A DNA stretch of 20,754 nt from a virus. A program made the position numbers and the translations under genes. The notes below the pieces were generated by a model. That model was not told where the DNA came from, searched no databases, and saw only the letters and a list, made by a program, of their open reading frames with translations. The stretch spans positions 1 through 20,754 of the IMG/VR virus record IMGVR_UViG_3300025646_000475; one strand, 5' to 3'. The first letter of the stretch is position 1. Each line of letters starts with the position of its first letter. Positions 146 to 19,800 of this stretch are shown in pieces.

Positions 146-1246
146 TTATTCATCATTTTCTTCATAAAAATCTGAAGCGTTGCCAAGTCGCTGGTCAAAC
201 TTTTTGATTACTTCTTCGTCCATAATGTCATAGACACGCTGCTTGAAGGCTTGGTCTTGCATTTTGTCTTCCCATTTAGAAGGCTGGAACTTTTCTACTT
301 TGCCGTCGCCCATTTCCAAAGAATACCAAGCACCAGCAGAACTCATATACTTTGAGCCTTTGACTGCTTCAAATAGACTTTGGTCGTCTTGGACACCGAC
401 ACCCTCAGTTCCCCACAAGATTTTGAAGTTGCATTGCCGACCTTGTGTTCCAAACCTGCTTTTCTCCAACTTGACCTTGACCTCAGAGCCAATACGAAAA
501 CCGCTTTCATCAGTAATGTAAGCAGCCTTTGCCTTGCGACCTGTCAGCCAGATACGCAGAGAATAAGCATAATGCATAGCCTTACCACCCGGAGTTACAT
601 AGGGAGTAGTCAAAGCCTCCGAAGGCGAACTGGTAATGTTAGTCTTCAACTGGTTTAGCACCAAGAAGGTTGATTGGCTGTTAGCAATCGGCACAGTCAA
701 CTTGGACATACCTTTAGCCAAGATTCTTGCTTTTACTGCCATTGAAGACTGTGGATTAAAGTCTCCTTCCACATCGGAAATAGCAGGTGTAAGAGCAAGA
801 GAATCCCAAATGAAAAGCATACGATTTTCATTGTTAGCCAAAAGGTCTTCGATAGTTTCCAATACAAACTCAACAGACTGAGCCTGAACATATAGAATAG
901 TATCAACATCGCATCCAGCCCTCTCCAAGAAAGCAGGGTCAATAGCAGATTCAGAATCGAAATAGATGACATCAATTCCCTTCTTCTGTGCGTTGGCTGC
1001 TACTTGTGCTGCCAAGAATGACTTACCTGTTGCTTCAAGACCTGCGATCTCTGTTACTTTGCCGACTGGAATACCAGCCAGTTGTCCTTTACAAATAATA
1101 GAATCTAGCCACCTAGACCCTGTTGGAATCCAATCATTAACCTCGGTTGGATTCTCTTCACTTAGGTTGTGTGCTACGGTCATGCCAGCCCTCTTATTAA
1201 TGAGTTTTCGCATATCTGCCATAGACAGTTTACCTGCTTTAGCCAT
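146..1246 (-). CDS. RecA/UvsX-type recombinase
   Basis: The product is a 366-aa ATP-dependent strand-exchange protein that would form filaments on single-stranded DNA for recombination-dependent replication and repair. The Walker A loop GLEATGKS is at residues 69-76, a Walker B-like strand (MLFIWDS) at 143-149, and the NQLKTNI segment leading into DNA-binding loop L2 at 198-204, followed by a glycine-rich TPGGKAMHY at 218-226. Length is between that of E. coli RecA (about 350) and T4 UvsX (about 390). The C-terminus is acidic (EENDE), as in many RecA proteins. The ATG has a GGAGA site 5 bases upstream (1251-1255). The gene follows the single-strand DNA-binding protein, its natural partner, but a strong terminator lies between them, so it is probably expressed by read-through at lower level. 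No separate promoter is evident in the 45-base gap. Confidence 0.95.
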   Translation of the reverse strand: MAKAGKLSMADMRKLINKRAGMTVAHNLSEENPTEVNDWIPTGSRWLDSIICKGQLAGIPVGKVTEIAGLEATGKSFLAAQVAANAQKKGIDVIYFDSESAIDPAFLERAGCDVDTILYVQAQSVEFVLETIEDLLANNENRMLFIWDSLALTPAISDVEGDFNPQSSMAVKARILAKGMSKLTVPIANSQSTFLVLNQLKTNITSSPSEALTTPYVTPGGKAMHYAYSLRIWLTGRKAKAAYITDESGFRIGSEVKVKLEKSRFGTQGRQCNFKILWGTEGVGVQDDQSLFEAVKGSKYMSSAGAWYSLEMGDGKVEKFQPSKWEDKMQDQAFKQRVYDIMDEEVIKKFDQRLGNASDFYEENDE

Positions 1247-1291: not shown

Positions 1292-2047
1292 TTAGCCTGC
1301 GAGTTCTCGAAGAGCAGCCTCAACATCATTAGATGCCTCGCTCGTGGTAGAGGCATACTTTGTGGTTTCAGAGGAAGCGTCCTCTGCATTCACATCAGAG
1401 TTGAGGAACTCATCCAGAATGTCTTGCACATCCTGAGTGGACTTACGCTCGAAGAGTGTATCCAGATCTGGGACTGCCTCGACAATCTCCTGACAAGCCT
1501 CATCGCCATCATCGCACAATGGGGAGGATTTACGTCGTGGCTGGACTTTCGTCTGTGGATAAAGCATACCGGGAGCCTTACCGTAAGACAGGACCAGATC
1601 TGTTCCTTCGTCTGGGTCAGTGATATCACCGTAGTCTGGGTTCAGAACCAGACTGAGGAGGGTTTCATAGACGGTCTTACCGTATCCCCAGACTTTAACA
1701 CCTTCGGCTTCTTGTCCTCGAACAAGAACAGGCGAGAAGAAGCGTTGGCGAGCAAAGAGGCTTTTTGCTTGCTGAATGCTCTCTTGCGAACCCTCGTTGA
1801 AGAGTTTGGTTGCAAAGTTGCATACAGGGCAATCGTCCCCAAAGTTACGCTTCGGGCAGAGGAAACCAGATTGGCTTCCAAGGTTGTAGTGGAAGTGATG
1901 CTCCTTAAAGGGATCTTCGTCTGGGGACGGAAGGATGCGGATTACATTCTCTCCGTCTTGGGGACGCCAGAACTCAGATTTCTTCTGACCTCCTTTCCCT
2001 TGGGCAGAAGCAAGTTTCTCTTTCATTTTATCAAGATTAATAGCCAT
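1292..2047 (-). CDS. gp32-type single-stranded DNA-binding protein
   Basis: This 251-aa protein resembles the T4 gp32 family, which coats single-stranded DNA and organises the replication and recombination machinery. The N-terminus (MAINLDKMKEKLASAQ) is basic, as expected for the cooperativity region. The core contains a zinc-binding pattern: histidines at 50, 51 and 53, then Cys64, Cys73 and Cys76 (CPKRNFGDDCPVC), close in spacing to His64-Cys77-Cys87-Cys90 of T4 gp32. The last 60 residues are rich in Asp, Glu, Ser and Thr, matching the acidic tail through which gp32 recruits partners. Length is slightly below T4 gp32 (301 aa). The start has an AAAGGAG site, and a near-consensus sigma70 promoter lies about 30 bases upstream, suggesting strong expression by host polymerase. 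A terminator follows, then recA. Confidence 0.88.
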   Translation of the reverse strand: MAINLDKMKEKLASAQGKGGQKKSEFWRPQDGENVIRILPSPDEDPFKEHHFHYNLGSQSGFLCPKRNFGDDCPVCNFATKLFNEGSQESIQQAKSLFARQRFFSPVLVRGQEAEGVKVWGYGKTVYETLLSLVLNPDYGDITDPDEGTDLVLSYGKAPGMLYPQTKVQPRRKSSPLCDDGDEACQEIVEAVPDLDTLFERKSTQDVQDILDEFLNSDVNAEDASSETTKYASTTSEASNDVEAALRELAG

Positions 2048-2075: not shown

Positions 2076-2104
2076 ACTATACACTAACTAAAATTGAATG
2101 TCAA
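2076..2104 (-). promoter_or_regulatory. Sigma70-like promoter for ssb (and recA)
   Basis: On the minus strand a perfect -35 box TTGACA (2104-2099) is followed after exactly 17 bases by TATAGT (2081-2076), five of six matches to the -10 consensus. The -35 box overlaps the stop codon of the upstream tubulin-like gene. The ssb start codon is 29 bases beyond the -10 box, leaving room for a short leader with the AAAGGAG site. This suggests that host RNA polymerase transcribes ssb independently of the virion genes upstream, probably early in infection. Confidence 0.8.
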
Positions 2105-2940
2105 GCATTTTTTTCATTTTGTATTTCTGAAGTACTTGCGATGAAATAAGCGTATTTATCGGCGTATTGGGTTGGAAATACGCCGTAGGAAACTTTTACG
2201 TCTTTTTCCTGTGGCGAATCTTTCACTTGGCTCATAATCTTACTCATCAAAGTCTTATCAGTTTTTAGTTCCTCTTCGGGAATGGCGTAATAATAACGCT
2301 TCTCCACAACATTGTCAAGAGAAAAAAACGGGCTTTCGTCGCCTGTTTCTGGATTTAGAATGCCGAAAGTTGAGATACGGCAGATATCTTTTGGGTCAGA
2401 CAGAGTTCCAACGACTGGCTCTGAATGATTGAAAATGTTAGTCATATGTATCGTTGCGACAATAACTTCATTCAATCTATCGTAATAGCCCATAATCGGT
2501 GCTCCACCTAAGATTTTGTCTATCTGTTGGTTATCAATCGCATAGAACTGCTTGAAAACGCCTGACCTTGCGTAATGCTGCAAAACACCAAATACCAAGT
2601 TTGTTTGCAGTCTTCTTGTCTGAGACAAGGTATCTACGTCTGGGTGAATGTAAAGAATGCTTATTGGTCCTTTGCCGTGGATTTGTTCTAGAACACGAAG
2701 GGCTGCGCCTGAAATAATGCTGGCTCCTGAAATAACAAAGAGGATCTCGCCTTCAACGTCTCGCAGTTGGTTTGCGATTAGTGGAAAGTTCTCTTCGTAT
2801 TTCTCAGGGTGGTCATACTTAGGCACACGAATGTCTGCGCTTTCTTCGTGGTCAATAGTGATTACTTTGTATTGTGGGTGTTGCGAAAAGGCTTTGCCTA
2901 TTTTATAGCCTACGTTGCCCAGTCCAATTATTATATCCAT
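2101..2940 (-). CDS. Putative compact FtsZ/tubulin-superfamily protein
   Basis: The 279-aa product has an order of segments that fits the FtsZ/tubulin fold, though no signature motif is intact. It opens with a strand and glycine-rich loop, MDIIIGLGNVGYKIG (1-15), like beta-1/T1. A strand then leads to ISGASIISGAALRVLEQI (70-87), where the tubulin GGGTGTG (T4 loop) and its helix belong. ISILYIHPDVD (93-103) and a helix beginning TRRLQTN (108-114) resemble the FtsZ segment TKPF..EG..R...A. YAIDNQQIDKIL (133-144) matches the position of the conserved IxNDxLL motif, and a helix plus SDPKDICR (181-188) matches the T7 region. The C-terminal part (215-272) alternates strands like the FtsZ second domain. 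It is shorter than FtsZ, mainly between T1 and T4. Phage tubulins (PhuZ, TubZ) position or segregate DNA. It overlaps the polymerase gene by 10 bases, so the two are probably translationally coupled. An alternative is a plain Rossmann nucleotide-binding protein. Family assignment is inference. Confidence 0.5.
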   Translation of the reverse strand: MDIIIGLGNVGYKIGKAFSQHPQYKVITIDHEESADIRVPKYDHPEKYEENFPLIANQLRDVEGEILFVISGASIISGAALRVLEQIHGKGPISILYIHPDVDTLSQTRRLQTNLVFGVLQHYARSGVFKQFYAIDNQQIDKILGGAPIMGYYDRLNEVIVATIHMTNIFNHSEPVVGTLSDPKDICRISTFGILNPETGDESPFFSLDNVVEKRYYYAIPEEELKTDKTLMSKIMSQVKDSPQEKDVKVSYGVFPTQYADKYAYFIASTSEIQNEKNA

Positions 2941-4115
2941 AAACCGCTCATTTCTCCAAAGTTCTTTCCAGCAGACACATTTGTTTTGAATACACCAAAC
3001 GGTGTTCCCATAAACTCCCAGTAGATTGAGTTGATAAAATCCCCATCTTCGTCGGAATAGTCTAGCACAATACTGTCGTGAATGATAAATGCTATTTTAG
3101 TTTTCTTACCCTTCAACAAATCATTTATCAAAATAGCCTTGTCTAAAATCATATCGCTACAAGTGCTTTGTATTATGTAGTTAACAGAGTGATACTCGTC
3201 TGCTTCTATCTTTCGGTGGAATAAGGTTTTTACATACTTACCGTCCCAAAACATTTCTTTGATACGCTCTCTGTTGTAGAGTTTAGATAGTTCCTTGTCC
3301 TCGGCATTTGGATTGTAAAGCCACGAAAAAATCCTCTTCTTTGATTCTTCTCTGGTTAGTTTGCCGTCAAAGAGTTCATAGGAGTTGTAGTCGTGAATGT
3401 CTATGTGTGGTTGCTCTACGCCGAGAAGACCCAGTAGGACACGGACTTCTGCTGCGTTGTAGTCAAACTCAACAAACCAGTTGTTCGTTGGCTTGATTAC
3501 TTTCCTGAACTTCTTATCCATAGTGAGGATTGGGAAAGAGTTCTTCTGGGTTGTGAGCCTTCCTGTCTTTGTTCCAAAAGGATTATACTTTATGTAAGGC
3601 TCTGTTTTCATTATCTTTTTGTAGAACTCTTTTGTTCTTGGGTCAGCCAAGTCGTTGTTTAGAACAGACAAGTCTATGTTTAGTTTCTGTTGTTTGATTT
3701 CAGTTACCAGTTTTGTAATGTGAAGCAAGTTGTCGTAGTTGTCTGGTCGCTTGTGTGTATCAATAACGTGCTGTGTAATCTTGTTTTTGAGAACACAGTA
3801 TTCTTTTAGGAAGCCTTCTGGGACAAGATCAAAGAAGCAATGGTCGTTTAGAGAAACCTTAGCAGTTATAAAGGACTTATAGAATGCTTTAAGTTTTTTC
3901 CAGATACGGTCATAGTCTTCCCTGAGTTCAGGAGGACAAGCCTGTTCTAGCGTTTTACCCTCGCAATAAATCTTGGCGTATTCTATGTTTAGGTCTTTGA
4001 GGAAGGAAGCGTATTCCCAAGTGTGGGTTCCGCCTTGGGGCAGGTCTTTTAGGATTTTACCCTCTGAATAAATACCAACGCATTTTTCTTTTTCGTCTAG
4101 GGCTTGGAATAACAA
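2931..4115 (-). CDS. Family A DNA polymerase, polymerase domain only
   Basis: This 394-aa protein carries the family A (Pol I/T7-type) polymerase motifs and would copy phage DNA. TGRLTT at 184-189 matches the conserved T-x-GR-L(S/T) segment. Motif A is DYNAAEVRV at 218-226, with Asp218 as a metal ligand and Glu223 and Arg225 in place. Motif B is reduced to K260..F263..Y267. NYIIQSTCSDM (312-322) matches the NY..QG..AD helix. Motif C is HDS at 346-348: the metal-binding Asp347 is kept but the usual Glu is Ser. There is no 3'-5' exonuclease domain, since only about 180 residues precede the GRLT segment; proofreading must come from another gene or be absent. The frame starts with TTG, preceded by AGAAGG at about 6 bases, and I see no better ATG. 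T4 uses a family B enzyme instead. I recall that RM378, a distant T4-type phage, encodes exonuclease and polymerase activities separately. Confidence 0.85.
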   Translation of the reverse strand: MLFQALDEKEKCVGIYSEGKILKDLPQGGTHTWEYASFLKDLNIEYAKIYCEGKTLEQACPPELREDYDRIWKKLKAFYKSFITAKVSLNDHCFFDLVPEGFLKEYCVLKNKITQHVIDTHKRPDNYDNLLHITKLVTEIKQQKLNIDLSVLNNDLADPRTKEFYKKIMKTEPYIKYNPFGTKTGRLTTQKNSFPILTMDKKFRKVIKPTNNWFVEFDYNAAEVRVLLGLLGVEQPHIDIHDYNSYELFDGKLTREESKKRIFSWLYNPNAEDKELSKLYNRERIKEMFWDGKYVKTLFHRKIEADEYHSVNYIIQSTCSDMILDKAILINDLLKGKKTKIAFIIHDSIVLDYSDEDGDFINSIYWEFMGTPFGVFKTNVSAGKNFGEMSGLWI

Positions 4116-4125
4116 TGCTGACCTT

Positions 4126-5583
4126 CTAGTAATATTGTTTTAGGTATTGCTGAATATACTCTAAAGCGGCAGATTTGTCAACAAATTTATAAATCTGATC
4201 TATTTTTTGAAGGTTCTTGTTCAAGATAGGCTCTGGAACGTTGGCTTTTAATTCTTTTAATCTAATGATAAAATACATTTTTGTCCAGAATAAATCATTA
4301 TATTTCTCGTCGTGGACTTTTTGACCAATCGTTTTTCTAAAAACTTTTATGATTTTTGTTTTTTGAGTGTTTCCATAGTCAGTAAATGGACTTGAAGGAG
4401 AACAGGCAGTAAGTTTTGGAACTGCAACATTTGGAAATGCTGCCACATATGTATTGTAGAACTGCATTAAATAAACTTTTAAAGCGTCAATATCATATTG
4501 ATCTGCCCTAATAAAGAAGCGATCATATATGTCTTTCTGATTAAAAGATTCCATTGGTTCAGTTCCCAAGAAGTGAACGTGTGGACCTATCCCTACCTGA
4601 TTAAATACATCATATGTTGCACTTTCTGCTTGAATAATCTGATAGTTTTTAATCTCGTGCCTATGAAAAACTCCCGGCTCCATTGGATCTTCAGTATATT
4701 CTGTGAAGCCATTGCCAGCAGCATCAACAACATAAGTATGGCTATGAGTTGTCCCTACATTTGGCTTTGTAAATGCGGTTGTTGTTGTTCCTTGTAGTAG
4801 ATAACTAATCATATACTTGGCAATATATGATCTCATTTCTGGAGATTCCAAGTTGGCGATCAATCTCCAAGGAGCATTTTTATCTACCATAAAGCCGAAC
4901 TTCTTTGCAGCCAACAAATAAGTTTTGAAATTAATATTGTTTACAAACTTATCATATTTCTCATAGTCATCAGAATGATCTAAGTTGTAAATCTCTATAC
5001 ACAGCCCACTCATCATAGGTGTAAAATAACTGGATCTTATAAACCCGCTTTTTGTAAAAGGAATTTCTGAAATCATACTTGATACAAGATCATTTAAGAA
5101 TACATCTAAGAAAGTTTCATAGTTTTTTATGCTTTTGTGCTTTCCTGTTTTATCAAGGTATACTCCAGCAAAATCTTGATAAAGAGCAACCATTGCTTCG
5201 TGATGTGCTTGATGAACGTTCTGCCATCCTTTTGTTGCAGTCCAAGGTTTTGTTATGGCATCATCTTCAACAAACTTTTTACTTATCTTTATTTTCATCC
5301 ATTGCTGAAAATCTTGATATGCATCTGCTACAAATCCAAAAACAGCAACATCTTTTTTTGTTGTTGGTATTATTTTAAGATATGTTTCATTTGGAAATAT
5401 AATATTTCTTTCATTGGTTTCTCTACCATAAAAAAGATTCTGTTGTTCCCAGAAAGAAAAAGTTTGTGGGAATGTAGACCCAGTTGGAAACAACTCTTGA
5501 TATCTTGTTCTCTCCTTGAATAAGACTTTAGATCCAAGAGAGTTGATACCAAAAACGATTTCATCATTTAACTTATAAGTCAT
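4126..5583 (-). CDS. Probable virion protein with three paired-histidine motifs
   Basis: I do not recognise the family of this 485-aa protein. It follows the baseplate hub-like gene with a 1-base gap, which suggests a virion, probably baseplate or tail-tip, role. The notable region is residues 279-337: THSHTY (279-284), a DAAGNG turn (287-292), HRHEI (307-311) and GPHVH (333-337). H-x-H pairs spaced this way around glycine-rich turns occur in phage tail spike and tail fibre tips, where they bind metal ions, and here they could form one or two metal sites. The N-terminal 60 residues include a PTGSTFPQTFSFWEQQN stretch, and the C-terminal 100 residues look helical and charged. No transmembrane segment or signal peptide is evident. 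The ATG has a GGAG about 9 bases upstream, inside the end of the previous gene. The polymerase gene follows 10 bases later, so this gene is the last apparent virion gene before the replication block. Confidence 0.75.
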   Translation of the reverse strand: MTYKLNDEIVFGINSLGSKVLFKERTRYQELFPTGSTFPQTFSFWEQQNLFYGRETNERNIIFPNETYLKIIPTTKKDVAVFGFVADAYQDFQQWMKIKISKKFVEDDAITKPWTATKGWQNVHQAHHEAMVALYQDFAGVYLDKTGKHKSIKNYETFLDVFLNDLVSSMISEIPFTKSGFIRSSYFTPMMSGLCIEIYNLDHSDDYEKYDKFVNNINFKTYLLAAKKFGFMVDKNAPWRLIANLESPEMRSYIAKYMISYLLQGTTTTAFTKPNVGTTHSHTYVVDAAGNGFTEYTEDPMEPGVFHRHEIKNYQIIQAESATYDVFNQVGIGPHVHFLGTEPMESFNQKDIYDRFFIRADQYDIDALKVYLMQFYNTYVAAFPNVAVPKLTACSPSSPFTDYGNTQKTKIIKVFRKTIGQKVHDEKYNDLFWTKMYFIIRLKELKANVPEPILNKNLQKIDQIYKFVDKSAALEYIQQYLKQYY

Positions 5584-13995: not shown

Positions 13996-16900
13996 TTAAT
14001 CTTCAAATCCTGCGCCAGAGTTTGTGATTACGAAATCGATTGCGAAGAACTCAACAGCCTTGGTTGGCTTCAAGAAGATCTTTGCGTAAATCGTATTTCT
14101 ATCAATCATCTCTGCCGTTGTTGTTGTATCATCAAGGATAACACGGAAAGCATCCAATCCATAGTTGTTCTTAATGTTATCCAAGAAAGGATTAACTTGA
14201 CCAGTAAATCTTGCCCAAGTTGCCTCTACGTTAGGCTCAAACAACAAGTTTGCTGCGATTCTTGAGATTTCTTTCTTTACATAAATCATCAATCTTCTTA
14301 CGTTGATTCTATCCAATGCCGATGGAGTAACCTGAAGAGTCTTTTGACCGAAGATTACAATTCCTTCGCTTGGGAAAGAAGCAATAGGGTTGACGTTTCT
14401 TTCATACAAGAAGTCTCTTTCTTTAGAAGTAAGTCTGCTTCTTACGTTAGTTACTGGAAGACCAGCCGCACCGTCAGTCAAGCCACCTCTGTTGAAACCA
14501 GCAGGGGCAAACCAGAGAGCAGATTGCTTCTCAGAGTAAGACATTGCTCCAAGTGCTGCGATTGAAGGTGGTGCCCAGATTCCACGACCGCTGACTGTAT
14601 CAGAGATGCGAACCCAAGGATAGTATGTTGCGCCATAACTTGAGTTAAGGTTACGAAGTTCCATATTTTGTCCAACTTCAGCAACGTGTTGTGATACGCC
14701 GCCCAGACCTGTTCCAGCGGTGATTCTCAATTCTTCACTGTCGAAGTTTTCAGAAGAAGGTAAGTATCCGCCTTTTGGGTCCATAAGCATCAAAGCATCA
14801 CCTCTTGCTTCACAAATGCGAAGACCGTGAGTTGTCAAACCTTGGTTAACGACACCCGGAACAGCCAAGATGTTTCCTTCAATGAACTCTGGATCAGCAA
14901 ACATATCGATTGCTTTCTTTACAGTGTAGAACATAGCCTGTCCTTCTTCTGTTGAAGCATCTGGGAGTGCTCTTGTTTGGTTAAAAGGCTCTTCTTCGGT
15001 AATGTCAAATCCGTTAAATCCACCGAACATTGGTGAAGTAAATCTATCGTATCCTCTGTCAATAATACCTTTGTAAGAACCAGATCTCGCAGTAACAGAA
15101 TCTCCTTGCGCTCTTGATCCAGAACGATAGAATACAGTATTCTTTGTGTTAAACTTGAATACCAAGTCATCCAATGAGAAGTACCAAGAAGTCTTGGTGT
15201 TATTTGCAGATGGAGCAAAAGTTCCTCCGTTTGCAAGTGGGTATACCAAATCAACCATACTTGGTTCATATACAGTTGATCCGCTTGATCTTGTGTATTG
15301 AGCACCGAAGTATGCTTCAGTTGGATCGGAAAGATCTCCATCAGAAGAACTTACACGAAGTGGAACTGTTGGATGTTTAACAGATCCAGTGAACTGAGCA
15401 ACTCTATCTTCAGAGATTGCTATAGCAGCGGCTGAAATGATTCCAAAAGAGTTATCTCCGACTCTTTGATCAGCATTGAAAATACCATTAGAGCCAGTTC
15501 CAGCAGTAAGAGGGCTTGTAACAGTCCCTGCTGCATTAGCAATAGAACCAGTTCCAGCAGTTGCTCCAGCATCAACAAGTGTGATATCCGAAAGGGTGAT
15601 TGGTCCTTCTACACCGAAAGGAAGCAACTCTGGGTTTGTCTGTGCTGTATCAACAGCATTTGCCATTTCAACACGAACAATCTTAGATCTGTTTGGGTAA
15701 GTTCCATATTCAACCAAACGTCTTTGATCTGCATTCCATTGGTAATATTTGTCACCAACTTGGGCTGCGATATAGTTTGGAGAGTTTGGATCTAAACTAA
15801 GACCAGCAAATCTTTCAACATATACTTTAGCATTGTCTGTATCTTGAGCATCTCTAATAGCCAAGGTAAATGTTCCATATGGACTATTGTCATTCTTGGA
15901 GTATTTAATATCTTCAATAGAAATCTTGAATTTTCTTTGGATTTCTTCACCAGAACTTAAACCGTGAACTTTGAACAATCTTGTAACTGTGTTCAAATTT
16001 TCTGGGTTGTATGCTGGTCTGAGGACGTTATCACCGATTGTTGCGGAACCTGCTGTATTTCTCAAGTCTTGTGAGAAAAACCATCCAGTTCTTGGTTGAC
16101 GGGTAGCGAACTTAAAATCACCTCCGTTGGCAATATCTGTAGATGCTCTACCAATTCTAACGATGATACCGTAAGCATCACTGCTTGTGATTGTTTCCGC
16201 AACTGCTCTTTCATATGTTTGACCCAACCAGTAAGTTGTAGCGTTTGCGGCTGCTGAATCAACGATGCTACTATTTGTGAAGGTTGGATTCGTATTGAAT
16301 ACCTTACGAATATAGTTTTGTGAAGACTGATCAAAGTTAAATGCTGTTGATTTAACAACCGCACTTGTATTATCGAGAACAACTGCTCCAAATGTTTTGC
16401 TTGCTCCATTAACCAATACACAAGATGATGTTGTTGTATTTTCAAGAGTTCCGTCAATATCGCCAGCGACCGCACCACGAATGGTTCCAGATAAGGCAAT
16501 AGATCCTTCTGTTGTGTAGAAAATGGCAGCAAGGGTTCCATTAACCGCTTCAATATCGCCAGAATCCCCAGCATTAGAAGCGGAGTTGAATAAGTACAAA
16601 CCGTATGCTCCACCACCAACTGCCGGATCTGTATTGGCTGATTTCCAACCTGCTTTACCAGCATCAGTTCCATCATTATCTGGAGATTGATCTCCAAGGA
16701 GACGAATAAATGTAAGGGAGTTGTTGTTCTTTAACCACGCTTGAGCAGCATAAGCGGCAAAAGTAGGAGCAGTCGGAACTCCATTTCTCCATAAGTCACT
16801 TGCTTCTCCACCAGCAACTGGATTTCCAAAAATGGTTACAAACTCAGAAAAAGAATCAACTTTTACTGGCTGCATTGCCGGACCTCTACGGGAACGACCG

Positions 16901-17004
16901 ATTACGAGAGGTCCGATTGCCTCTGGTGTCTTAGGGAGTTGTGAGTTATCAATTTCCTCAACGTGAACTCCGGGTGAAACAAACTTAAAATCTTTTGCCG
17001 ACAT
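13996..17004 (-). CDS. Tail sheath protein (gp18-like), unusually long
   Basis: The 1002-aa protein forms the contractile outer tail tube. The N-terminus, FKFVSPGVHVEEIDNSQLP (6-24), has the SPGV...E.D...P pattern of myophage sheaths, followed by GPLVIGRSRRGPA and VDSFSEFVTIFGNP, also typical. The C-terminal 130 residues carry the conserved sheath core: FPSEGIVIFGQKTLQV, INVRRLMIYVKKEISRIAAN, and a final FAIDFVITN strand that links neighbouring subunits. T4 gp18 is 659 aa; the extra 340 or so residues lie in the middle (roughly 130-640), which is Ser/Thr/Gly/Ala-rich and probably forms additional surface domains. The start has an AAAGGAGA site. The gene follows the gp15-like gene after an 87-base gap with an ACTATTTA octamer. 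Confidence 0.95.
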   Translation of the reverse strand: MSAKDFKFVSPGVHVEEIDNSQLPKTPEAIGPLVIGRSRRGPAMQPVKVDSFSEFVTIFGNPVAGGEASDLWRNGVPTAPTFAAYAAQAWLKNNNSLTFIRLLGDQSPDNDGTDAGKAGWKSANTDPAVGGGAYGLYLFNSASNAGDSGDIEAVNGTLAAIFYTTEGSIALSGTIRGAVAGDIDGTLENTTTSSCVLVNGASKTFGAVVLDNTSAVVKSTAFNFDQSSQNYIRKVFNTNPTFTNSSIVDSAAANATTYWLGQTYERAVAETITSSDAYGIIVRIGRASTDIANGGDFKFATRQPRTGWFFSQDLRNTAGSATIGDNVLRPAYNPENLNTVTRLFKVHGLSSGEEIQRKFKISIEDIKYSKNDNSPYGTFTLAIRDAQDTDNAKVYVERFAGLSLDPNSPNYIAAQVGDKYYQWNADQRRLVEYGTYPNRSKIVRVEMANAVDTAQTNPELLPFGVEGPITLSDITLVDAGATAGTGSIANAAGTVTSPLTAGTGSNGIFNADQRVGDNSFGIISAAAIAISEDRVAQFTGSVKHPTVPLRVSSSDGDLSDPTEAYFGAQYTRSSGSTVYEPSMVDLVYPLANGGTFAPSANNTKTSWYFSLDDLVFKFNTKNTVFYRSGSRAQGDSVTARSGSYKGIIDRGYDRFTSPMFGGFNGFDITEEEPFNQTRALPDASTEEGQAMFYTVKKAIDMFADPEFIEGNILAVPGVVNQGLTTHGLRICEARGDALMLMDPKGGYLPSSENFDSEELRITAGTGLGGVSQHVAEVGQNMELRNLNSSYGATYYPWVRISDTVSGRGIWAPPSIAALGAMSYSEKQSALWFAPAGFNRGGLTDGAAGLPVTNVRSRLTSKERDFLYERNVNPIASFPSEGIVIFGQKTLQVTPSALDRINVRRLMIYVKKEISRIAANLLFEPNVEATWARFTGQVNPFLDNIKNNYGLDAFRVILDDTTTTAEMIDRNTIYAKIFLKPTKAVEFFAIDFVITNSGAGFED

Positions 17005-17059
17005 TTTATTCTATTCTCCTTTGAAACGTCCAATATTCTTGACGAATTTATTTCTCTAA

Positions 17060-18015: not shown

Positions 18016-18493
18016 TGAACGTTCCTTTTCTTGCTCTCTTACAAGTAGCCATTATTTCCATTTTATGTTCCACTTGACCAAATATTTGCCTTGGCTCGTT
18101 TAAGGTTACGATTTCATAGTGGAACTGACCGTATAAAACAAAGTCACCTTCTCTTACAAACAAATTTTGATCTTCGGTTAATCTTCGCTTGTGGAAGTAA
18201 ATGTTAATACTTGATTCTTTATCTACTCCCATATTTGCTGTGCTTGTTTCTTGACCTTCCCAGCCAATCAAAGCATAAACTCTAATAGGCGGCAAAAAAG
18301 TCTTATTTATACTTTCACCATATAAAGGATGAAAGTTAGTTTTTTCAAGACTTATAGGATAATAAAGGATTGTTTGACCTATGACCCTCTCAATGATCTC
18401 ATCATTGATCTGCTTGACGAGATTGCGCTCTTTCTCCCCAGTAAATAAGGGAGGAGGAGGTGCTTCGGGTTGTGACCATTTGTTGTTTGCCAT
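18005..18493 (-). CDS. Neck protein, gp14-like
   Basis: The 162-aa protein has features of T4-type neck protein gp14, which with gp13 closes the filled head and joins it to the tail. It shows HPLYGESINK (55-64), a PPIRVYALIGWEG strand (68-80), MGVDKESSINIYFHKRRL (88-105) and GDFVLYGQFHYEIV (116-129). The pattern of a variable strand, .G.D.E....I.F..R.L, then GD...Y....YEI.. is shared with neck proteins of T4-type phages. It is shorter than T4 gp14 (256 aa). The N-terminus is Pro-rich (PEAPPPPLF). It sits 5 bases after the gp13-like gene and overlaps the gp15-like gene, the standard order of these three. Assignment relies on this order as well as on the sequence. Confidence 0.6.
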   Translation of the reverse strand: MANNKWSQPEAPPPPLFTGEKERNLVKQINDEIIERVIGQTILYYPISLEKTNFHPLYGESINKTFLPPIRVYALIGWEGQETSTANMGVDKESSINIYFHKRRLTEDQNLFVREGDFVLYGQFHYEIVTLNEPRQIFGQVEHKMEIMATCKRARKGTFNGY

Positions 18494-18498
18494 TTATC

Positions 18499-19800
18499 TT
18501 ATCCTACAAAAAGTGAAGGTGGAATATTCTTTAATACATTTTGTGCTGATTCACTTATGCTGCTATCTTTTTCAGCAAGTTTTTCATAAGTGAGTTCATC
18601 AAGCACAGTTTTCAATTCATCTCTCAATGCTTGTTGTTCTTCTTTGGCTTGAGATAAAAGTTCTGAACCGTTCATAGATATGCTGTCATTTGGGATTGGA
18701 ATAGAAGCAAACTTAGATCTAATCAATCCGAGCATTTCTTTTGCTAAGGCAAGAGCAAATCTTCTAATCCATTGCTTACCAATAGCATTAATCTTATCGT
18801 ATGGTATATTCTCGAATGGAAGAGTGTTCATATTGTTGACACCGGAAGCACCATCTTCTTTTCCTGCTTCTTCAGACCAAGGATCAGTTGCTACTGTAAA
18901 CTCAACCCAATAACTTGTTGGTCCACCTGAATATGGCTTTGGGAATAATCTAAGTTTATTATCTTTAATCTCATAAGAAAAATGAGATGCTCTTGTGTAG
19001 ATTGAATCTTCAAAAGCCATTGCTTGTGCTTTGTTTTGCCAAGTTGGGATTAGTTCAAATGTAGAATCATCTGAGTATTGTCCGTAATAAGACAAGTTGC
19101 CTACAGTATTCAGACCGCCATAGTATCCATAAAATCTCCACATAGCATTAGGAGTTTTATAATATACTTTTCTAATGGTGACTCTTTTGTCTCCTGTAGC
19201 ACCGAGTTTTCCATAAAATGGGCTATCTGCATCTGTCAAAGAAGTGTCGCTGATAATGCTTTGTAGATCGTAATCTTGTTTATCTACAACCGCTGTAAAC
19301 GAAGCAGAATAGATTGGGGTTGTTCCGCCAATCCCTACTTGAGTAGAAACTGCATCGCCAACTCTCATAGCATACTGGAAATCAAACTTTGGATATTTTA
19401 AGCCTACCTCTGATCCACTAAGAGTATCTCCGCTAACCAACTCACCATCTGAATCAAATGATCCTGTTCCAGCACCAAGAACACTTCCAAGAACATTCTT
19501 GGCTTGATGAACATTAATTAAATAAGAATATTCAAGACACGCCTCTTCATAAGCAGCATAAACTTGATACTCTGTAATCTCAATGTCTAATACATCACCG
19601 CCGAGTTTCTTATATACATAAGTTACTTGGTCTGCTGCACCTTCCTTAAAAGCATTAAGTGCTTCTTCTGATTGAGCGTGTTCAATGTATACGCCATAAG
19701 GAAGCGGATTGTCTGCGTTATTAACATTAGCAACTGTTCCAGTTACTGGTAGTCTTGAAACGCTGGTATTGCTTGCTGGTGTTAAGGTTGGGTAAGCCAT
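18499..19800 (-). CDS. Neck / head completion protein, gp13-like
   Basis: This 433-aa protein is the first of the neck block. Residues 71-96 (LDIEITEYQVYAAYEEACLE and onward) match the pattern by which T4 gp13 and related connector proteins begin: an acidic strand, then a helix with regularly spaced Tyr/Ala/Glu. The middle is beta-rich and aromatic (WRFYGYYGGLNTVGNLSYYG), and SYWVEFTVATDPW is another strand. The C-terminal 100 residues are a helical Lys/Glu-rich stretch (LRDELKTVLDELTYEKLAEK). It is longer than T4 gp13 (309 aa). A strong AAGGAGAT site lies before the ATG. A terminator stands between it and the capsid gene, so it may have its own start; a TATGAT sequence lies in the gap but without a good -35 box. 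Confidence 0.65.
   Translation of the reverse strand: MAYPTLTPASNTSVSRLPVTGTVANVNNADNPLPYGVYIEHAQSEEALNAFKEGAADQVTYVYKKLGGDVLDIEITEYQVYAAYEEACLEYSYLINVHQAKNVLGSVLGAGTGSFDSDGELVSGDTLSGSEVGLKYPKFDFQYAMRVGDAVSTQVGIGGTTPIYSASFTAVVDKQDYDLQSIISDTSLTDADSPFYGKLGATGDKRVTIRKVYYKTPNAMWRFYGYYGGLNTVGNLSYYGQYSDDSTFELIPTWQNKAQAMAFEDSIYTRASHFSYEIKDNKLRLFPKPYSGGPTSYWVEFTVATDPWSEEAGKEDGASGVNNMNTLPFENIPYDKINAIGKQWIRRFALALAKEMLGLIRSKFASIPIPNDSISMNGSELLSQAKEEQQALRDELKTVLDELTYEKLAEKDSSISESAQNVLKNIPPSLFVG

Follow-up and report, generated by a model that had tools for sequence, protein, structure and literature searches.

The 20,754-nucleotide viral stretch analysed here (the window; IMG/VR record IMGVR_UViG_3300025646_000475) encodes a compact protein, here called FZL, immediately beside a phage DNA polymerase. 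An earlier note on this DNA took the protein for a divergent FtsZ/tubulin relative, and the locus thus raises the question of whether FZL has that fold and, if so, what such a protein would do among replication genes. The genes concerned are the following:

2101-2940, minus strand: FZL, 279 aa, compact protein of predicted tubulin/FtsZ fold, ATG at 2940 (ORF call and fold prediction)
2931-4115, minus strand: PolA, family A DNA polymerase domain, 394 aa, motifs A, B and C intact
1292-2047, minus strand: gp32-like single-strand DNA-binding protein (SSB), next gene downstream of FZL
146-1246, minus strand: UvsX/RecA-like recombinase, beyond gp32

Gene order, carrier genomes and constraint

In the window, the start of FZL overlaps the end of PolA by 10 bp, while FZL and gp32 are separated by 53 bp. 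The polymerase is a compact family A enzyme without exonuclease domain and is not T4 gp43. The other side of PolA is occupied by baseplate and tail genes, as far as the tail sheath (13996-17004, 1002 aa), which matches the sheath domain in its C-terminal part only, with a large N-terminal or insert region unmatched. Moreover, a 485-aa protein without Pfam or PHROG match (4126-5583) lies between the tail genes and PolA, a position conserved across loci.

Coupling to the polymerase gene proved stronger than had been claimed. PolA was directly upstream of FZL in all 237 loci with an identified upstream neighbour, overlapping it in 167, and gp32 was next downstream in 244 of the 245 loci with an identified downstream neighbour; both counts include some contigs that were fetched twice with different flanks. 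The sole locus without gp32 directly downstream (L047) has a gap of approximately 4.4 kb between FZL and UvsX. FZL was present as a single copy in each of nine long records (64-184 kb). In four long records the operon could be followed past UvsX. Allowing for some insertions, it continues there through a 5'-3' exonuclease-like gene, a DnaB-like helicase and, at approximately 1140 aa, a DnaE-like Pol III alpha, and ribonucleotide reductase was found in three or four of the four; for one of these records, L289, the domain names were confirmed by Pfam. The DnaE-like protein, which has a PHP domain, was located at L289:12031-15480, L287:1822-5232 and L290:1850-5257, besides the compact PolA. As 139 of 139 PolA sequences keep the catalytic aspartates in motifs A and C as well as R/K/Y in motif B, two polymerases seem to be present in FZL phages. 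In addition, L289 carries ThyX, adenylosuccinate synthetase (PurA, 16058-17050) and IMP dehydrogenase (18104-19000), the latter two downstream of DnaE, so that this phage has purine genes of its own, a step toward GTP included.

With the single window protein as query, 47 loci were found in IMG/VR, and profile scans of the same resource raised the number of confirmed relatives to at least 486-591. The fetched loci yielded 144 distinct full-length proteins, reduced to 106 by dropping those at least 85% identical, and the aligned proteins share 36-85% identity with the window protein. Close pairs showed dN/dS values of 0.03-0.06; FZL is a real protein under strong purifying selection. This constraint and the complete reading frame rule out a split or truncated canonical FtsZ. 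The carriers, with genomes of roughly 150-200 kb and thus of T4-like size, form a large, abundant, uncultured and unannotated group of tailed phages, which, judging from IMG data set numbers, are probably marine.

Searches of Pfam, PHROGs, PDB sequences and, by tblastn, 50,697 phage records returned nothing significant for FZL. None of 19 members matched PF00091, and FZL reaches at most 12.9 bits against this profile, over the T1 loop, versus a curated cut-off of 33. Judged by sheath, gp32 or UvsX, the nearest cultured phages are Microcystis phage Mel-JY01, Flavobacterium phage immuto and Lysinibacillus LysYB1, and their genomes gave no FZL match; in all three, gp32 and RecA/UvsX adjoin each other, and in immuto the pair of genes that separates PolA from SSB appears, by eye, unrelated to FZL. 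The only match in a genome contig (L115) was a phage contig of approximately 5 kb bearing the FZL operon within the WOR-3 MAG CP070664. It looks like contamination rather than a prophage: 100-N gaps connect the phage contig to the rest of a concatenated MAG labelled as a chromosome, and it therefore gives no host.

Fold and family membership

Structures were predicted with AlphaFold2 for the window protein (19 alignment rows; mean pLDDT 86.1, pTM 0.88) and for the distant relative L113, 43-47% identical to it (27 alignment rows; mean pLDDT 91.8, pTM 0.89). As the two alignments have members in common, the models are not wholly independent. Both display the order S1-H1-S2-S4-H4-S5-H5-S6-H6-H7-S7-S8-H10-S9-S10, that is, the canonical superfamily layout of an N-terminal Rossmann-like GTPase domain, a central H7 and a C-terminal domain. 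In Foldseek searches against solved structures, the best E-values were 1e-11 for the window model (to S. aureus FtsZ) and 4e-12 for that of L113 (to FtsZ), and the best 50 rows were all FtsZ, tubulin, TubZ or CetZ; PhuZ was absent among the best 50 solved-chain matches listed, which has no bearing on its distance. VIA-align placed CetZ first for both models (window, Z 24.5 over 256 residues, rmsd 2.9; L113, Z 25.5 over 263 residues, rmsd 4.0), followed within about 1-3 Z by TubZ, FtsZ and tubulin. Of the eight best matches to viral models, those bearing a name were nearly all phage FtsZ/tubulin-like proteins.

At the sequence level, an FZL profile aligned with FtsZ only weakly (hhalign, E 0.007), in the register that the fold demands. 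The fold thus rests on prediction, namely on two high-confidence models, since sequence profiles detect the superfamily only weakly. Altogether, a complete tubulin/FtsZ fold, as the earlier note had proposed, is strongly supported and, within the limits of prediction, settled. The whole-length matches bear out what the note had looked for, but T7, H8 and H9 are missing and the profile match is weak. By fold FZL is a member of the superfamily, and by the features tested it is not FtsZ, tubulin or PhuZ.

The fold matches also bear on a reading of FZL as an ordinary NAD(P)-binding Rossmann protein, with GLGNVG and D30 as dinucleotide fingerprint. A sub-threshold TrkA_N match over residues 3-33 of the window protein (19.3 bits, cut-off 23.8) and weak TrkA_N matches in 10 of 19 members speak for it; it is contradicted by both models, each of which has the central H7 as well as a C-terminal domain of S7-S10, and we consider a Rossmann dehydrogenase ruled out by the whole-length matches, which are to tubulin/FtsZ (E 1e-11, Z above 24).

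A different candidate role for FZL is that of a decoy, poisoning host FtsZ by co-assembly or capping and so blocking division during infection. FtsZ is a known phage target, and the FtsZ-like fold would suit this role. Nevertheless, we regard it as improbable: the gene holds a fixed position within the replication operon (237/237 loci) rather than among host-takeover genes, the profile match to bacterial FtsZ is weak, and the strong constraint is not the change expected of an arms race.

A scan of long FZL records with PF00091 revealed a second FtsZ-like protein in record G013, of 364 aa, with a T1 loop GVGGGGGK, a T4 loop AGGGGGTGS and a T7-like FDSKDLER:

L284:2390-3481, equal to G013 103389-104480, minus strand: second FtsZ-like protein (PF00091 scan)

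Its family (345-410 aa) has an acidic N-terminal tail with a conserved FDF, T4 GGGGGTGS and a T7-like DSKDL, and comprises at least 107 relatives on IMG/VR contigs of up to 281 kb, with no match in cultured phages. Its alignment with FtsZ spans almost the full length (hhalign, E 2.9e-10; PDB FtsZ matches down to 4.6e-8), and it aligned with the FZL profile at E 0.0019. FZL was found in 5 of 15 other long contigs bearing the second family, and the second family in 1 of 23 long FZL contigs. The two families, of which the second is canonical and T7-bearing, are separate and sometimes share a genome.

Predicted nucleotide site and missing interface elements

All segments quoted in the earlier note (SGASIISG, ISILYIHP, IDNQQIDKIL and SDPKD) are found in the translation of 2101-2940. 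Placed on the alignment of 106 proteins and on the models, the elements of the superfamily fall as follows:

2908-2925, minus strand: T1 loop GLGNVG, residues 6-11; family GLGxAG, with G6, G8 and G11 in 104-105 of 106
2704-2730, minus strand: T4-position loop SGASIISGA, residues 71-79 (profile alignment and conservation)
2563-2580, minus strand: near-invariant motif QHYARS, residues 121-126, C-terminal end of H5
2524-2535, minus strand: T6 position around N137, the guanine Asn equivalent to FtsZ N165, invariant (106/106)
2470-2484, minus strand: H7 start YDRLN, residues 153-157; aromatic at 153 in 94/106, N157 in 106/106
2377-2427, minus strand: H7-S7 connection, residues 172-188, expected T7/H8 site; no NxDxx[DE] and no helix

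The earlier view that all signatures are degenerate fits the T4 loop of the window but not the family, in which T1 is near-canonical (consensus IIGLGxAGCNIA, with GLGxAGC in most members) and the asparagines of T6 and H7 are invariant. The T4 signature GGGTGT/SG is absent: against GGGTGTG in FtsZ, the family consensus is [GSC]G[SA]Gx[IV]SGA, mostly G[SA]Gx[IV]SG, and the window departs further with GASIISG. Profile alignment (hhalign) paired IDN of FZL with IPN of FtsZ at T6 and YDRLN with FGAAN at H7, a register in which the guanine-contact set of the superfamily is present, i.e., the T6 asparagine together with an aromatic residue (Y or F at position 153) and an asparagine at the start of H7. 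Overall, the base-binding residues are invariant, whereas the phosphate and catalytic elements are altered.

The short region between T1 and T4 remarked on earlier was confirmed, at approximately 71 residues versus 91 in E. coli FtsZ; it is about 20 residues shorter, and H2 is missing. Helices H8 and H9 are likewise absent from both models, H9 being replaced by a short strand. SDPKD had been assigned to T7, and this assignment fails: D182 and D185 are not conserved, NxDxx[DE] occurs in none of the 106 proteins, and no acidic position in the H7-S7 connection is conserved above 73/106. The connection itself is nearly as long as that of FtsZ (32 versus 36 residues, counted from the H7 asparagine). 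A second near-invariant set comprises Q121, Y123, R125 and S126 at the end of H5, and H165, M166 and N168 in the second half of H7. Topology would put this set near the domain end that faces away from the nucleotide, which in FtsZ is the site of T7 action.

In FtsZ, tubulin and PhiKZ TubZ alike, T7, the base of H8 and S9 make up the protofilament interface (PMC3678025). Loss of the T7/H8 elements therefore argues against a canonical FZL protofilament. The main rival reading is nonetheless a dynamic, GTP-hydrolysing filament that positions phage DNA in the manner of PhuZ, its catalytic site re-invented, in which the face formed by Q121/Y123/R125/S126 and H165/M166/N168 would replace T7 in contacting the neighbouring subunit's nucleotide. 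The whole fold and the base-binding residues are retained, and two invariant residue sets lie, by topology, at opposite ends of the GTPase domain, as such a filament would have them. On the other hand, NxDxx[DE] is lacking throughout the 106 proteins, H8 is absent, T4 is altered, and FZL is without the C-terminal H11/tail found in PhuZ and TubZ (PMC3678025, PMC5322520). Moreover, T7 mutants of PhuZ form non-dynamic filaments (PMC4244570, PMC7950403); PhuZ with a mutated catalytic aspartate polymerises yet is static (PMC4244570). We consider this filament unlikely, and less likely than a static scaffold or adaptor.

The more specific suggestion of a PhuZ-like replication compartment is likewise not sustained, given the missing T7, H8 and tail. 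Neither the window protein nor L113 matched PHROG 4733 or PF22334 (PhuZ), which 201phi2-1 PhuZ, as a control, matched at 1e-105 and 6.5e-41, respectively; the PhuZ profile aligns with FZL over T1 only. In addition, a single-protein query, which misses distant relatives but matched its control, detected no chimallin in five FZL records of 155-184 kb, records that may be incomplete.

Proposed role and comparison with known systems

Based on these results, FZL most likely serves the phage replication complex as a scaffold or adaptor that is gated by guanine nucleotide but does not hydrolyse it, a proposal that we hold with moderate confidence. As the base pocket is kept and T7/H8 are lost, binding of nucleotide without canonical hydrolysis is to be expected; in combination with the unvarying order of genes, such binding would favour a static scaffold or adaptor of the replication complex. 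FZL would then be a miniaturised tubulin/FtsZ fold that has become a fixed component of the PolA-FZL-gp32-UvsX replication operon in a large clade of tailed phages. It would bind guanine nucleotide without canonical head-to-tail hydrolysis, and the nucleotide state, together with the opposite face (Q121, Y123, R125, S126, H165, M166 and N168), may govern oligomerisation and/or docking of partners. The resulting static assembly could keep polymerase, SSB and recombinase together, or anchor these in the cell, and FZL would be more pseudo-tubulin than cytomotive filament. Gene context suggests, but does not prove, physical contact with the replication proteins. Against the scaffold or adaptor, a polymer would also fit the presence of conserved residues on the two predicted longitudinal faces. 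Tentatively, FZL may also be a dedicated nucleotide-sensing subunit of the viral replication machine, whose base pocket controls assembly on PolA/SSB rather than powering a cytoskeletal filament. To our knowledge, no other tubulin has a core role in DNA synthesis.

Two groups of phage tubulin have been described (PMC7950403), PhuZ from jumbo phages that form a nucleus and TubZ from plasmid-like phages. FZL is a new divergent clade of the tubulin/FtsZ superfamily, not PhuZ, TubZ, FtsZ or CetZ, and adds a further phage group, found in phages of T4-like size within a replication operon, its catalytic loop lost. Our results suggest a tubulin turned into part of the DNA-copying machinery. FZL would test how far the fold can depart from force-producing filaments, and whether cytoskeletal folds organise replication sites of bacterial viruses outside jumbo phages.

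Among known systems, the archaeal CetZ (PDB 3zid and 4b45) is the best whole-chain structural match; however, it is a cellular protein of 14% identity, and FZL lacks H2, T7/H8 and H9. As TubZ and FtsZ score nearly as high, a specific kinship between CetZ and FZL is not shown. PhuZ/PhiKZ TubZ of jumbo phages is, like FZL, a phage-encoded protein of tubulin fold with a conceivable role in phage DNA organisation, but the two share no sequence-family match and differ in T7, H8, C-terminal tail and carriers (FZL phages being of about 150-200 kb and without detected chimallin in the five records), and FZL sits in the replication operon, PhuZ of 201phi2-1 among hypothetical genes. TubZ of plasmids and phage c-st resembles FZL in fold (Z 23.2) and, as FZL may do, serves DNA maintenance of extrachromosomal elements; it has a C-terminal tail and a TubR/tubS partition cassette (PMC7950403), whereas the direct neighbours of FZL are PolA and gp32. 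FtsZl1 is, like FZL, a divergent member of the superfamily, for which unusual or no filaments were argued from missing interface elements (Makarova and Koonin 2010, PMC2875224). It keeps the GTP-binding loop and is unalignable at S6-T7 and in the C-terminal domain, while FZL shows the reverse, with T6, H7 and the C-terminal domain kept and the catalytic loop lost. Finally, AlpC of prophage CGP3 (PMC4446434) is an unrelated protein of actin fold with an adaptor, AlpA; like FZL, it is a phage protein of cytoskeletal fold, and it is needed for efficient phage DNA replication.
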